The translations under genes and the position numbers were made by a program. The notes under the pieces were generated by a model, which made no database searches, was not told the DNA's origin, and saw nothing but the letters and a program-made list of their open reading frames with translations. Positions 24,298 to 63,662 of a stretch of DNA of 64,000 nucleotides are shown here, in pieces (the stretch's first letter is position 1; each line of letters starts with the position of its first letter). The DNA is from Pectinatus sottacetonis (GTDB lineage Bacteria; Bacillota; Negativicutes; Selenomonadales; Selenomonadaceae). The DNA is taken from NCBI RefSeq assembly GCF_015732155.1, contig NZ_WIQK01000001.1, positions 530,501 to 594,500 of the forward strand, written 5' to 3'.

Positions 24298-25440
24298 ATG
24301 CCGGGCAGAAAAAAATTCATAGTAATTCCTGATTCATTTAAAGGAACACTTTCTTCCTATGAAATATGTGCCATTATGAGTAAAAAAATTACTGCTTATT
24401 TTCCTTGTGCCAACATAGTGACTATCCCTATAGCTGACGGTGGTGAAGGGACAACAGACGCTTTTATAGCCGCACTGGGAGGTCAAAAAATAATAACAGA
24501 AGTAAATGGTCCTTATCAGAAAAGGATCACTTCATTTTTTGGTATTCTGCCTGACAAAACAGCTGTTATTGAAATGGCAGCAGCAGCAGGACTGCCCTTA
24601 GTAAAAGATAATCTGCATGTCGAATATGCCAGCACTTTTGGCGTAGGTCAATTAATAAAAAAAGCTGTTGACTGCGGCTGTAAAAAAATTATTCTGGGAC
24701 TAGGAGGCAGCTGTACTAATGATGGAGGCTGTGGTATGGCCGCGGCTTTAGGCGGTATTTTTAAAGATATTGCTGGCAATGCTTTTCTTCCAGTCGGTAA
24801 TACGTTAAAGGATATTGCCACCATAAATTTATCTTCCATAAAAAGCAATTATTCTAATATTAAATTTTATGCTATGTGCGATATTGATAACAAATTATAT
24901 GGAAAAAATGGTGCAGCTTTTATCTTCGCCCCGCAAAAGGGTGCTGATGACGCAACTGTAGAATTACTCGATAAAGGACTTATGCATCTATCAAGCGTTA
25001 TAAAAGCGTCCTTGGGTATGGACATAGCTGATTTAAAAGGCGGTGGAGCTGCCGGCGGTATGGGAGCCGGTGTTGCCGCATTTTTAAATGGTTCACTATC
25101 CAGTGGTATAAATACAATTCTTGATTGTGTAAATTTTGATAAAATTTGTCGCGATACTGATTTCATTTTTTCCGGTGAAGGAAAACTTGACCACCAATCA
25201 CTACAAGGAAAAGTATTAGACGGAATATGCCAGCACGCCAGGCAATTTTCTGTACCAGTAATTGCCGTGGTCGGCGCAGTTGAAGGTGATATAAGTGAGA
25301 TGTACAATAGAGGTATTACCGCTATTTTTAGTATAAACCAAAATCCTTTGCCTTTTTCGCAAAGTGCCCCATTAACTGCTAAAAATTTACAAATAACTAT
25401 GGATAATATTCTGCGATTACTGATTTGTTCTGCAAAATAA
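24298..25440 (+). CDS. Glycerate kinase (GarK/GlxK family)
   Basis: The 380-residue protein has the family's ordered blocks: IPDSFKGTLSSYEI, IADGGEGTTDAF, GLGGSCTNDGGCGMAAALG, and FSGEGKLDHQSLQGKV. It phosphorylates D-glycerate to 2-phosphoglycerate with ATP, feeding lower glycolysis. The gene stands alone, with AAGGAG before ATG 24298, so the source of glycerate is unclear; no tartronate semialdehyde reductase or glucarate genes are nearby. Length is normal for the family. Confidence 0.93.
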   Translation: MPGRKKFIVIPDSFKGTLSSYEICAIMSKKITAYFPCANIVTIPIADGGEGTTDAFIAALGGQKIITEVNGPYQKRITSFFGILPDKTAVIEMAAAAGLPLVKDNLHVEYASTFGVGQLIKKAVDCGCKKIILGLGGSCTNDGGCGMAAALGGIFKDIAGNAFLPVGNTLKDIATINLSSIKSNYSNIKFYAMCDIDNKLYGKNGAAFIFAPQKGADDATVELLDKGLMHLSSVIKASLGMDIADLKGGGAAGGMGAGVAAFLNGSLSSGINTILDCVNFDKICRDTDFIFSGEGKLDHQSLQGKVLDGICQHARQFSVPVIAVVGAVEGDISEMYNRGITAIFSINQNPLPFSQSAPLTAKNLQITMDNILRLLICSAK

Positions 25441-25596
25441 TGCTATTATATAATAAATTTATCTAAAATAGGATTTTTTTTCGTAAAAATTAATATATTT
25501 TACTTTTTTTCTTATATTCTTATGAATTTTTAATAAATACCTGTAAAATATATTATAAACTACTAGACAAAAGTACGCAGATATGCTAAGATATGA

Positions 25597-25687
25597 AACG
25601 TAAAGATGTTAACAAGGCAATGGAGCCATATGATTACCTGATTTCTGCATATTATCGTAGGGGTTAGTTCATTCATATGGTTTTTTT
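25597..25687 (+). promoter_or_regulatory. Probable transcription attenuator before glutamine synthetase, possibly ANTAR-controlled
   Basis: A terminator pairs CCATATGA (25626-25633) with TCATATGG (25673-25680), followed by seven T. Its 5' arm overlaps the 3' side of a small hairpin GGC-AATGGA-GCC (25616-25627), whose six-base loop has A at position 1 and G at position 4, the pattern read by ANTAR antiterminators. The two structures exclude each other. A weaker upstream hairpin (AACG-TAAAGA-TGTT, 25597-25610) could be the second ANTAR stem, but its loop begins with T. A terminator-type leader is well supported; the ANTAR link is an inference. Confidence 0.5.
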
Positions 25688-25723
25688 ATTGCTTAATTTC
25701 TAAAATATAAAGGTGGTTTTCTT

Positions 25724-27610
25724 ATGGACGATTTACTTTTCGTTATCCCTGCGAATTCTAAAAAAGAAGATATTCTGTGCAAATTGAAAGAACACCCTGA
25801 AATTAAATTTGTTTCATTAGTCGGTATTGACCTTGCTGGTAATGATACTGATGAAAAAATACCTATGCAGATTTTTCTGGATGATATAGACAAATTTTAT
25901 GAGGGATCAGCAGTTCAGACAGATGGTTCTTCTGTAGTTTTAACTAATATTGCTACCTTAAATAATGCCAAAGTTGATATGCCAGTAGATCCATCTGTTA
26001 ATTGGTTTATTGATTATAATATGGAACATTATGATGCTGAATTAGATAAACCTATTGGTACACTCCGCATCCCAGCATTTCTTATTCATGAAGGTAAGCG
26101 TGTTGATTCTCGTGCTGTTCTTACTGATACTCTTTCTTATGTCAAAAAAGAACTTCTTGGCCTATTTGCACAAAACGAAACAGTTTCTGGCCTTGAACAT
26201 ATTAAAAGCAGTGATGTGGAAGATATTCTCTTTACTTCTGCCACTGAACTTGAATTTTGGGTAAAAACACCATTAAGTGAAGCTGACATTTCCGAAATGA
26301 GTGCATCCCAGGTCATGCAGGAACAATATTGGCAGCGTACCCGTGGGGCAGTTCGTTCCGCGCTGGAAGAAACAATTCTAGCCATGGAAGACTACGGTTT
26401 GGAACCAGAAATGGGTCATAAAGAAGTTGGCGGCATGAAAGGACACATGGATTCATCAGGTCATATGAACCATGTTTGTGAACAAATCGAAATTGACTGG
26501 AAATTTGCTAATGCTGTACAAGCCGCAGATAATGAATTACTCGTCCGTACCATTGCTAAAGAAGTATTTCGCGCTAATGGACTTGAAGTTAACTTTAAGG
26601 CAAAACCCATGATTGGTCTGGCTGGTAATGGAGAACATACTCATATAGGTATGGCTGCTAAACTAAAAAGTGGTAAAATAATAAACTTATTCTCGCCCAA
26701 GGAAATGACAAAAGATTTCATGAGTTCCATAGGTTATGGTGCAATAATGGGACTTTTGAAAAATTATGAAGTAATCAATCCATTCGTTTCTTCTACAAAT
26801 GATTCACTCAATCGTCTTAAGCCAGGATTTGAAGCACCTGTATGTATAGTTACATCACTTGGGCATGATCCTAAAATTCCTTCACGTAACCGTACTATAC
26901 TAGCCGGCCTTGTTCGTGATATAAACAGCCCTATGGCTACGCGTTTTGAATTACGCGCCTGCAACCCATATACAAATACATATATCGCATTGTCAGCTAT
27001 TTATTCAGCTATTTTAGATGGTGTTAAATATTCTATTACAAAAACTACCACTGAACTTGTTTCTGAACTTTCAAAAGAAGCTGGTTCATCTGCTGGTTAT
27101 TTAGAAAAAGACCGCGCATATCGCAGTGAAAACGATGTATTTGAAGATTATACCCAAGAAGAGCGTGATCATCTCTTCTCTGTACCACCTGCTACTGTAT
27201 GGGAAAACATGCAGGCATTGAAAAATTATCCGGAAAAACGTTCTGTTATTACTGCTAGCGGTGCTTTGCGTGACCAAATAATTGATGCTTTTGTTGCTGG
27301 CGAACTCATTCGCTGGAAAACAGAACTTATCAGTCGTATAATTCCAGAAAATCGCGCTATAGTAAGCGCATGCCAGGAAATAAAATCTAATTATGTTACT
27401 GACCAGGATTCTTATAATTGGAACAAAATTAACAGTATGCGTTGTTATCTTGCTAAAGACAGTATTGACGAAAAATCTTTATTTACCTTATTGATAAAAG
27501 CTCTGAATGAAAATGATTTTGCTACAGCTTCTGGTCTGCAGATCGAAATGTATGATAAAGTTGAAGAATTAAAAACCCTTTATGCTGCTTATAAAATGAA
27601 TATGATTTAG
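25724..27610 (+). CDS. glnA: Glutamine synthetase, long (628-residue) form
   Basis: Glutamine synthetase motifs occur in order: TELEFWVKTP (active-site Glu pair), GMKGHMDSSGHMNHVCEQIEID in place of the usual metal-binding loop, a stretch ending FKAKPMIGLAGNGEHTHIGM (family KP...G..H.H), LNRLKPGFEAP, SRNRTILAGL and ATRFELRACNPYTNTY. It makes glutamine from glutamate, ammonia and ATP. At 628 residues it is longer than GSI (about 445) and shorter than GSIII (about 700+); the extra length is an N-terminal part and a helical ~120-residue tail. It is monocistronic, bounded by an attenuator and a strong terminator. Glutamine synthetase activity is likely, though the odd metal loop leaves a small chance of a related ligase. 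Confidence 0.88.
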   Translation: MDDLLFVIPANSKKEDILCKLKEHPEIKFVSLVGIDLAGNDTDEKIPMQIFLDDIDKFYEGSAVQTDGSSVVLTNIATLNNAKVDMPVDPSVNWFIDYNMEHYDAELDKPIGTLRIPAFLIHEGKRVDSRAVLTDTLSYVKKELLGLFAQNETVSGLEHIKSSDVEDILFTSATELEFWVKTPLSEADISEMSASQVMQEQYWQRTRGAVRSALEETILAMEDYGLEPEMGHKEVGGMKGHMDSSGHMNHVCEQIEIDWKFANAVQAADNELLVRTIAKEVFRANGLEVNFKAKPMIGLAGNGEHTHIGMAAKLKSGKIINLFSPKEMTKDFMSSIGYGAIMGLLKNYEVINPFVSSTNDSLNRLKPGFEAPVCIVTSLGHDPKIPSRNRTILAGLVRDINSPMATRFELRACNPYTNTYIALSAIYSAILDGVKYSITKTTTELVSELSKEAGSSAGYLEKDRAYRSENDVFEDYTQEERDHLFSVPPATVWENMQALKNYPEKRSVITASGALRDQIIDAFVAGELIRWKTELISRIIPENRAIVSACQEIKSNYVTDQDSYNWNKINSMRCYLAKDSIDEKSLFTLLIKALNENDFATASGLQIEMYDKVEELKTLYAAYKMNMI

Positions 27611-32966: not shown

Positions 32967-34844
32967 GTGTGCCCGGCATGGGCGCAGTCTAACGGGTGAA
33001 AGTCCCGAGTGCAGGTTAATAGTGCCAAGCACATAGCTTAAGGCAAGGGTGTCCATCGCGAGGTGGAATCTAAAGGAAGCCAGCGGCAAATCTCTGGTCT
33101 GACGAACAGAAATCACATATAAGGCAGGAGTAACCGGGTAAGGTTGCTAGACAAACCAAAGCCCAAAACTATTCGAGGCCAATCCTGTAAATGTGGCAGA
33201 TGGATGGAGAGAAAGACTGCGTTCTTACCCGGGGAGGTCTCGCGGACATGCAGAAATAAAATTGAAACATGGTTGAAATAAGATTTATCGTGAGAAGTCA
33301 GCTGAGGTCATAGTACTGGAAGAAATCCAGGAAGGACCGAACAATAATAGCGTTCTTGGGCAGAGGGAGGAGAAGTCATGCAAAGAAAGCAGAAAACCAA
33401 TAAAATGGACTGCCCTTGTAAGGGTATGTTGGAAACAGATAGTAGCAAGGGAGCGCAGAGCATGACATCGCTGGGAACTGCAACAAAGAACCGTGTGAAC
33501 CTGTTAGAAATAATCCTAAGTCCGGCAAATCTCAATGAAGCCTATCTCAGGGTAAAGCGAAAGAAAGGCGCAGCCGGAGTAGATGGCATGAAAGTTGACG
33601 AAATGTACGGATGGTTAAAAGAACATAAGGAAGAATTCCTTGAATCGCTAAAGAACGGGAAATATAAACCACAGCCGGTACGGCGGGTAGAAATACCTAA
33701 GCCAGACGGAGGGAAAAGAAAGCTTGGCATACCAACAGTACTGGACAGAGTAATACAACAAGCAATAATGCAGGTACTACAGCCAATTTTCGAACAGACA
33801 TTCTCAGACAACAGTTATGGATTCAGACCGGGAAAGAGTGCGCACCTGGCCATAAAACAGGCGGAAGCCTATTATAAAGAAGGATACACTAAAATAGTGG
33901 ACCTTGACCTTGCACAGTACTTTGACACGGTAAATCATGACATGCTCATAAACATGCTCCGAGAAGAAATACAGGATGAGCGCGCAATAGCACTCATCCG
34001 AAAATATTTAAAGAGCGGAGTAATGGAAGGCGGAATAATAAGCCCGACAATGGCAGGAACGCCGCAGGGAGGAAACCTGTCACCATTACTGTCTAACATC
34101 TATCTTACAAAATTTGACAAACTGCTAGAAAGCAGGGGACATAAATTTGTAAGATACGCCGATGACTGTAACATCTATGTAAAAACGCCAAGAGCGGCAA
34201 AACGTGTAATGGAGAGCTGTATAAACTATCTTGAAGGAAAACTGAAACTAAAAGTCAACCGGAAGAAAAGTAAAATAGGCAGCCCATTGCGGGAAAAGTT
34301 TTTAGGATTTTCTCTGCACAAAGTAGTAGGGAAAATAGGAATCAGGCCACACCAAAATGTAATCCGGAAATTCAAGCAAAAGGTGAAAGAAATAACCGGC
34401 CGCAGTCGCGGCCGGTCAATAGAAAGCATCTTGCTTGAATTAAAAAATTATACAATAGGCTGGCTTAATTACTTTTCCATAAGCGATATGCGCAGCAGAA
34501 TACAAGATTTAAACCAGTGGATTAGGCGTAGATTGAGAATGTATCTGTGGAAACAGTGGAAGAAAATTTCCGCGAGATTTAAAAATCTGAATCGATTAGG
34601 ATTGTACAAAGGCAAGGCGTGGGAGTATGCCAATACAAGACTGGGGTACTGGCGCATCGCAAACAGTCCAATATTAGGCAAAACACTAACAGATAAATAT
34701 CTTGAGTCGCTTGGTTATATGAATATAGCCAAGAAATATGAGATGTTTCATTCACGTTAAATTATTGAACCGCCGTATACTGAACAGTAAGTACGGTGGT
34801 GTGAGAGGTCGGTCATTCAATTAATGAGTGACCTCCTACTCGAT
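32967..34844 (+). mobile_element. Group II intron, 1,878 bp, inserted antisense in hypE
   Basis: The 5' end is GTGTG (32967-32971), the group II consensus, and the 3' end is CTACTCGAT (AY end). Domain V is a 34-nt-type hairpin in 34766-34802 (ACCGCCGTA against TACGGTGGT around GAAC), and domain VI pairs GAGGTC with GACCTC (34804-34835). The RNA domain I lies in 32967-33377, the maturase frame in domain IV. The ends are fixed independently by the target: joining 32966 to 34845 restores a 336-codon hypE frame (1,008 bases with stop). No target duplication is expected or seen. The intron runs opposite to hypE. Confidence 0.96.
33378..34760 (+). CDS. ltrA: Group II intron reverse transcriptase/maturase (LtrA family)
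   Basis: The 460-residue protein has the group II RT blocks: NLNEAYLRVKRKKGAAGVDG (RT0-1), KLGIPTVLDRVIQQAI (RT2), FSDNSYGFRPGKSAHLAI (RT3), VDLDLAQYFDTVNHD (RT3-4), GTPQGGNLSPLLSNIYL (RT4) and KFVRYADDCNIYV with the catalytic YADD (RT5), then the maturase X domain (GRSIESILLELKNYTIGWLNYF). No HNH endonuclease domain follows. It is complete, so intron splicing and mobility are plausible. GGAGGAG precedes ATG 33378. It is read on the strand opposite to the hydrogenase genes. Confidence 0.95.
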   Translation: MQRKQKTNKMDCPCKGMLETDSSKGAQSMTSLGTATKNRVNLLEIILSPANLNEAYLRVKRKKGAAGVDGMKVDEMYGWLKEHKEEFLESLKNGKYKPQPVRRVEIPKPDGGKRKLGIPTVLDRVIQQAIMQVLQPIFEQTFSDNSYGFRPGKSAHLAIKQAEAYYKEGYTKIVDLDLAQYFDTVNHDMLINMLREEIQDERAIALIRKYLKSGVMEGGIISPTMAGTPQGGNLSPLLSNIYLTKFDKLLESRGHKFVRYADDCNIYVKTPRAAKRVMESCINYLEGKLKLKVNRKKSKIGSPLREKFLGFSLHKVVGKIGIRPHQNVIRKFKQKVKEITGRSRGRSIESILLELKNYTIGWLNYFSISDMRSRIQDLNQWIRRRLRMYLWKQWKKISARFKNLNRLGLYKGKAWEYANTRLGYWRIANSPILGKTLTDKYLESLGYMNIAKKYEMFHSR

Positions 34845-63092: not shown

Positions 63093-63662
63093 ATGGGAGC
63101 CGCACACTCGTGACTTCAGTCAGAGTTAGGCGACCAAACTAGTCAGTATGTATAGAATATGCATATAGAGATTGGCAAAGACCAATCCAATACTGCCTGA
63201 AATGCTGGAAACTCCTAAAGACAGCATAGCCACAACGCTAAGATGAAACAAGCTCAAACGTGACGGCGACGAAAGTAAAAAAAATATGCTGTATGGTGCA
63301 AGGTTAAACCCTAAACACTAAGAAAATGGACAATCAGCAGGAAAGCTCCGAACAGGAGAATCCCCAACGACTATTCCTCTTGAGGGAAGTACAGCCAAGC
63401 GGCTGGAAGTGGGCAGACCTTAACGGATAATGCCGAAGGACAAGATATAGTCTGTGCTTTATGGAAACATAAAGGAGTTCATAAGAGAACCGCATAGGAA
63501 GCAGCGAGCCCGTGTGAACGACACCTCCCCCATACGACTAAAAAAGAACTTACGACTCTTATATAGAGTTACTGCAAAGAACTTGCTTTTCTAAAGCCTG
63601 CATGTTAAGTTTAAAATAATCAGGCAATAATCTTGTAAAGATAAAAAGAAAAGTGAGCAATC
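63090..63662 (+). ncRNA. Group I intron RNA core of the IStron
   Basis: Conserved pieces of group I introns are visible: the S element AAGATATAGTCTG (63442-63454), whose GTCTG (63450-63454) pairs with CAGAC (63414-63418) of R to form P7, the guanosine-binding helix; and a P-like stretch AAATGCTGGAAACTCCTAAAG split as AAATGCTGG and AAACTCC at 63200-63216. The region is compact, has many GC helices and no reading frame, in strong contrast with its AT-rich host. The exact splice sites were not derived; the 3' splice site is outside the window. Confidence 0.85.

Follow-up and report, generated by a model that had tools for sequence, protein, structure and literature searches.

The window, by which we mean the whole 64,000-nucleotide stretch of Pectinatus sottacetonis DNA analysed here, carries a glutamine synthetase gene (glnA) whose leader contains a promoter, a small hexaloop hairpin and an intrinsic terminator in close succession:

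25564-25592, + strand: sigma-70-type promoter, TAGACA-17-TAAGAT, with a TGn extended -10 (from the sequence)
25597-25610, + strand: AACG-TAAAGA-TGTT, the sole candidate for an upstream hairpin (P1), not an A1/G4 hexaloop, 5 nt 5' of the hexaloop hairpin
25616-25627, + strand: hexaloop hairpin GGC-AATGGA-GCC (P2-type), the proposed ANTAR-binding antiterminator (from sequence, conservation and covariation)
25626-25687, + strand: intrinsic terminator, predicted to compete with the hairpin (from sequence and folding)
25724-27610, + strand: glnA, encoding a 628-aa glutamine synthetase (PF00120, E 6.4e-36)

The GlnA protein shows 89% identity to its P. cerevisiiphilus counterpart and 90% to the one from P. 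frisingensis. From the promoter sequence, transcription is predicted to start at about 25599, and a promoter of like kind is also found 5' of the hairpin in 4/4 Pectinatus congeners. The hairpin consists of GGC (25616-25618), the loop AATGGA (25619-25624; A at position 1, G at position 4, closed by a C:G pair) and GCC (25625-25627). Its last two C's (25626-25627) are common to the 5' arm of the terminator, which is made of CCATATGA (5' arm, 25626-25633), TCATATGG (3' arm, 25673-25680) and a run of seven T's (T7, 25681-25687); the overlap is exactly as the first-pass annotation of this DNA had described it. The region 25561-25700 folds at -38.4 kcal/mol, compared with -23.6 ± 3.3 kcal/mol in shuffled sequences (z -4.5; 0/200 as good). 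In the window the terminator alone gives -20.8 kcal/mol, the hairpin alone is weak (-2.8 kcal/mol) and enforcing the hairpin costs ~6 kcal/mol (from -25.3 to -19.4 kcal/mol), whereupon two C's are taken and the terminator keeps its upper 6-bp and 11-bp helices. Because of this cost, and because just the base of the terminator is freed, a protein would have to hold the hairpin, as in the EutV model. Rfam covariance models (glutamine riboswitch, T-box and others) gave no match in 25440-25730, either at gathering thresholds or at E values up to 10. A leader peptide (ATG TTA ACA ... TGA) that is open in the window from 25606 was considered and rejected: its start codon is absent in one congener (L004), and the transcribed stretch before the ATG would be just ~7 nt. 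Elsewhere in the window, Rfam marks group II intron parts and a group I intron (33052-34844 and 63142-63474).

The conservation of the hairpin was assessed in 138 Negativicutes glnA leaders, 59 of them taken from relatives, with the window's own counted in, and the others from 79/80 named loci, a set that contains duplicates and a few shortened leaders. A C:G-closed R1/G4 hexaloop on a stem of at least 3 pairs is present in 95/138 of them compared with 6.9% of shuffled leaders, although at least 6 of the 95 are just CGC-GAAGGA-GCG, which resembles a ribosome site and lies next to the start codon. When overlap with a T-tailed terminator was required and G-U stem pairs were allowed, the hairpin was found in 89/138 leaders, 75 of them distinct. 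Conservation in relatives had been named beforehand in the first-pass annotation as one of two tests on which its reading would stand or fall, and the hexaloop is kept in 5/5 Pectinatus genomes and in much of the Negativicutes. Among the 75 distinct leaders, the loop begins with A in 68 and with G in 7, and the stems are GGC/GCC (63), GGC/GCT (2) and GTC/GAC (10); R1, G4 and the C:G closing pair were all imposed in the scan and so are not independent observations. At the centre of the 5' arm, the stem base, the base paired with it and the terminator base opposite read G/C/G in 64 leaders and T/A/T in 10, with no pairing in 1. This three-way covariation is the pattern expected of a mutually exclusive antiterminator and terminator. 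For 58 distinct hairpins, in just part of which the two outer stem pairs form, the covariation score lay above 500/500 shuffles, a level that related sequences can also reach without any structure; 38 cells were changed on both sides compared with 15.3 in shuffles, and pairs with a change on both sides showed no excess (3 compared with 2.8). A loop-length test without the loop rule placed 6 nt in 96/138 leaders (11 of these 96 being without a C:G-closed NNNG loop), 5 nt in 29 and 7 nt in 30; it carries no weight, because loops of 4 nt (73/138) and 8 nt (68/138) are also frequent and the separation is poor. In Sporomusa acidovorans (L187), with two ANTAR matches in its genome, the hairpin is shrunk to AAGTC-AAT-GACTT over a terminator-like stem. 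Were the leader a constitutive terminator or a processing element, unregulated and with its hexaloop kept merely through the shared terminator arm, the weakness of the hairpin in the window would be no surprise; however, the hairpin's 5' arm and loop, which the terminator does not need, are conserved all the same, and the arm also covaries, and we consider this explanation very improbable.

The genome encodes one ANTAR response regulator (family search, E 1.1e-19), the gene that the earlier reading had called for. It is a 194-aa REC-ANTAR protein, and its gene adjoins that of a GAF_PdtaS-HisKA_2 kinase, so that the pair has the architecture of PdtaS/PdtaR and EutW/EutV. The closest solved structures are 1s8n (E 4e-55), which we take to be Rv1626, and EutV 6wsh (E 8e-44). 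The RNA contacts of EutV are described as R142, K143, K147 and Y164 (PMC8934654). R142 and K143 are kept in 46/46 distinct ANTAR proteins, the K147 position holds R in 45/46 and K in 1/46, and the Y164 position holds Y in 38/46 and F in 8/46; four second ANTAR proteins that did not fit the motif search were left out of this count. A receiver domain is present in 59/64 ANTAR reading frames of the examined loci, and the five that lack one, a duplicate among them, belong to four genomes. These receiver-less ANTAR proteins are 331-345 aa long (L106 2713-3708, L207 628-1662, L316 1581-2588 and L317 1523-2545), and the one in L207 matches GAF_PdtaS, which suggests a sensor fused directly to ANTAR. 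In one locus (L107) an ANTAR regulator gene comes after glnA, then two more ORFs and a Glu_synthase gene, and a second (L108) shows a like glnA-ANTAR-glutamate synthase arrangement when read by eye; in Pectinatus the regulator gene and glnA lie apart, adjacency being found only in some relatives.

We compared the presence of the hairpin before glnA with that of an ANTAR gene across genomes. Both occur in 53 of 95 distinct genomes, the hairpin alone in 1, ANTAR alone in 7 and neither in 34 (Fisher P 1e-17), and the corresponding counts in the 57 genomes from the relatives set with a glnA leader are 47, 1, 6 and 3 (P 0.01); a genome-by-genome P value is not independent evidence here, because the GlnA tree (80 rows), with two changes in ANTAR and five in the hairpin, offers just two independent pairs, of which one agrees with ANTAR and the other is without a hairpin difference. 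One genome that is 99% complete (G033; leader L029) keeps hexaloop and terminator before glnA, and the family search found no ANTAR in it. The REC-ANTAR query gave 8 matches there, none reaching beyond residue 137 of 194 (ANTAR being residues 135-186), and a sensor-ANTAR query gave no match in a search without its own positive control; among the matches listed for the REC-ANTAR query in ten other genomes, most cover the receiver part and four weak ones reach residues 150-174. Conversely, seven ANTAR-bearing genomes are without such a hairpin before glnA, one of them (L047) having a 7-nt loop. A reader other than an ANTAR protein, be it another RNA-binding protein or a small molecule, would accommodate both G033 and these seven genomes. 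Such a reader is nevertheless rather improbable: the published signature of ANTAR targets is just such a hexaloop, C:G-closed with A1/G4 and lying over a terminator, attenuators stand before ANTAR kinase genes themselves (see below), a 12-nt hairpin is small as a ligand pocket and the Rfam search was empty up to E 10.

To find further sites, a 16-nt hairpin model, trained on these hairpins including the window's own, was run on the window's genome, where the glnA site came top of 14 (23.7 bits, E 0.11). A strong terminator also overlaps two more of these sites, both of them before Ammonium_transp genes (L271, L274); three others with a weaker terminator were left out. In 4/4 congeners there is a site ahead of a gene for a sensor kinase, confirmed by Pfam in L256, and the ABC-transporter genes that come next look urea-type by eye (L256-L259). 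Sites found in single congeners stand before a xanthine/uracil permease (L261), a sodium:solute symporter (L262), a family-3 solute-binding protein (L264) and an amino-acid-type permease followed, by eye, by eutA, eutB and eutC (L263). Other genomes have sites before ammonium transporters (L283, L306), ABC transporters (L288, L292), an M20 peptidase (L285) and PdtaS-type kinases (L286, L294), and also before genes whose tie to nitrogen is not evident (carboxyltransferase, L280; DUF3100, L310). Among 8 relatives with a second ANTAR gene, 6 have an attenuator directly 5' of the kinase gene of the second pair (three of these kinases confirmed by Pfam, three by eye), and none was found before that kinase gene in the other two (G045, G057). 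In all, 46 non-glnA sites out of 55 sites were kept; those dropped (L266, which is glnA itself, L268, L273, L275, L283 +638, L286 -2652, L302, L305 and L308 +2582) were weak, coding-looking, without a clear gene or duplicate (L308 +2582 being the L309 site). Promoter placement is poor at several kept sites (e.g. L263, L284, L286), and 31 regions were picked by eye for a visible terminator among the pattern matches listed. Overall, the idea of the first-pass annotation that glnA is subject to nitrogen-linked antitermination is supported, as a prediction from gene content, by the ammonium-transporter sites, the sites before other permease and ABC-transporter genes and the glnA-ANTAR-glutamate synthase cluster.

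Two further leaders deserve description. In a Pectinatus relative (L260, 2160 onward) an attenuator stands before a RACo gene, followed by ORFs that by eye resemble pyl/pyrrolysine genes; methylamines as a nitrogen source would fit these ORFs. A single leader in L297 carries tandem hexaloop attenuators (308 and 386, minus strand), and the next gene is ammonium-transporter-like by eye.

The first-pass annotation had envisaged twin A1/G4 hairpins competing with the terminator, while finding the first of the pair unconvincing. One hexaloop over a terminator is indeed present; the second is not, and the doubt about it was justified. The candidate at 25597-25610 has U1 and A4 in its loop and starts at about the predicted transcript start, and its four-pair stem is kept in 1/4 congeners (L003; not L004, L005 or L006). 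More generally, between the predicted transcript start and the hairpin, 5/75 distinct glnA leaders have an A1/G4 hexaloop (one of the five, L155, being C:G-closed) compared with 3.6 in shuffles (300 rounds, maximum 10). Within 30 nt of the hairpin, the counts were 6/75 compared with 4.9 before glnA, and 3/46 compared with 2.7 at the other sites, none of these three C:G-closed. Between the best -10 match and the hairpin lie 21-32 nt in 66/75 leaders, 11 and 15 nt in two and 38-89 nt in seven; with the short spacings, only 4-8 nt would be transcribed before the hairpin in a few leaders, as judged from predicted starts. A positive-control scan outside the class yielded 7 candidate sites: two, in eut-region leaders, with a C:G-closed P1 (one before eutA in Cetobacterium, with an 8-bp stem and a linker of 8; the other close to the Acetoanaerobium ANTAR gene, where the linker is longer) and five without, four of them inside reading frames.

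Two glnA leaders, L155 and L265 (the latter not among the 75), do carry, respectively 32 and 41 nt upstream of the glnA hairpin, an A1/G4 hexaloop closed by C:G. Both genomes encode a receiver-less ANTAR protein; in the other two genomes with such a protein (leaders L014 and L023) no P1-like hexaloop was found before glnA. It could be argued from these two leaders, despite their distances, that the Pectinatus leader is a classical dual-hexaloop target whose P1 (AACG-UAAAGA-UGUU) has drifted past recognition and still serves as the recruitment hairpin, all the more as the candidate lies 5 nt from the hairpin, inside the 5-12 nt described for the linkers between the two hexaloops of eut leaders (PMC3369931). 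We regard this as unlikely in view of the U1/A4 loop, the poor retention of the stem, the chance-level occurrence of P1 in the 75 glnA leaders and 46 other sites, and the mere ~4-8 nt from predicted start to hairpin in L059, L017, L257 and L306, which have good promoter matches.

Overall, we put the probability that the glnA leader is an ANTAR-type transcription attenuator with a single hexaloop at about three in four. RNA polymerase would initiate ~17 nt 5' of the hairpin; by default the terminator would fold and the transcript would stop in the T7 run, and glnA expression would therefore be low. Upon nitrogen shortage the PdtaS/EutW-like kinase (GAF_PdtaS-HisKA_2) would phosphorylate the PdtaR/EutV-like REC-ANTAR protein, a dimer of which would grip the hexaloop via A1 and G4 and hold the GCC arm, leaving the terminator without G:C pairs beside the T run and allowing glnA to be transcribed. 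We infer the binding, the antitermination, its direction (activation under nitrogen limitation), the kinase signal and the sufficiency of one hexaloop; default termination and antitermination in nitrogen limitation are proposed because of the anatomy of the leader and the kind of genes controlled. Counted against the single-hexaloop model are the G1 in 7/75 leaders, G033 without ANTAR and the seven ANTAR genomes without a glnA hairpin, as is the predicted fold, in which the window hairpin would take two C's and the upper terminator helices would stay. Moreover, one hexaloop may not suffice, because deletion of the EutV P1 is described as abolishing induction in vivo (PMC3369931). With somewhat less assurance, we favour the wider view that the Negativicutes as a class have a PdtaSR/EutVW-type nitrogen regulon that operates through single 5'-proximal hexaloop attenuators without P1, and that one hexaloop is enough in nature. 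ANTAR control of nitrogen genes is already known, and a regulon that spans the class and relies on one hexaloop would be a new architecture; among the papers listed, no title or opening of an abstract dealt with ANTAR in Negativicutes or with ANTAR leaders of one hexaloop, and Tables S1 and S2 of Ramesh et al. may contain Negativicutes leaders.

With regard to known systems, the protein architecture resembles that of PdtaS/PdtaR (Rv1626), 1s8n being the best solved match and the kinase matching GAF_PdtaS. In contrast to the single Pectinatus hexaloop, actinobacterial ANTAR RNAs are described as dual stem loops (PMC8164766). The leader shares with the EutV/EutW system of Enterococcus faecalis an A1/G4 hexaloop over a terminator, a REC-ANTAR protein with a partner kinase and nitrogen-linked genes, whereas EutV leaders have two hexaloops that are reported to be both needed in vivo (PMC3369931, PMC8934654). 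Like the nasF leader of Klebsiella it has a C:G-closed A1/G4 hexaloop, a C:G pair having been found to close the loop in NasR SELEX; unlike it, it lacks a second hairpin, and NasR, which answers to nitrate and nitrite, is reported to bind the single P2 hairpin with poorer affinity, about 12 uM (PMC7496416). The ANTAR regulator beside glnA and glutamate synthase in relatives recalls NitR of Clostridium acetobutylicum and the ANTAR-glnA-GOGAT cluster of C. thermocellum (PMC4676874, PMC9888227), although the Pectinatus regulator lies apart from glnA.

ANTAR antitermination of nitrogen genes, glutamine synthase among them, was proposed in silico by Ramesh et al. 2012 (PMC3369931; commentary PMC3369936) with a search model described as demanding two hairpins. 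Measured against that family, the Pectinatus leader has a P2 A1/G4 hexaloop at the terminator base, a C:G closing pair, an ANTAR protein in the genome and a hairpin and terminator that exclude each other (in the window through 2 shared bases, so that the upper helices can remain), and it has no upstream P1 with a 5-12 nt linker. It is classed as working like an ANTAR target but kept out of the published dual-hexaloop family, because the published model required two hairpins. Searches for dual motifs would tend by design to miss one-hexaloop sites (PMC3369931, PMC8164766), and ANTAR regulons may therefore be undercounted. In the EutV structure the ANTAR dimer is described as touching one hexaloop at a time, and the minimal binding motif was redefined as one hexaloop, both still being needed for antitermination in vivo; the same report asks why two are needed (PMC8934654), a question that natural one-hexaloop leaders, set beside the two-hexaloop eut leaders, would make directly testable.
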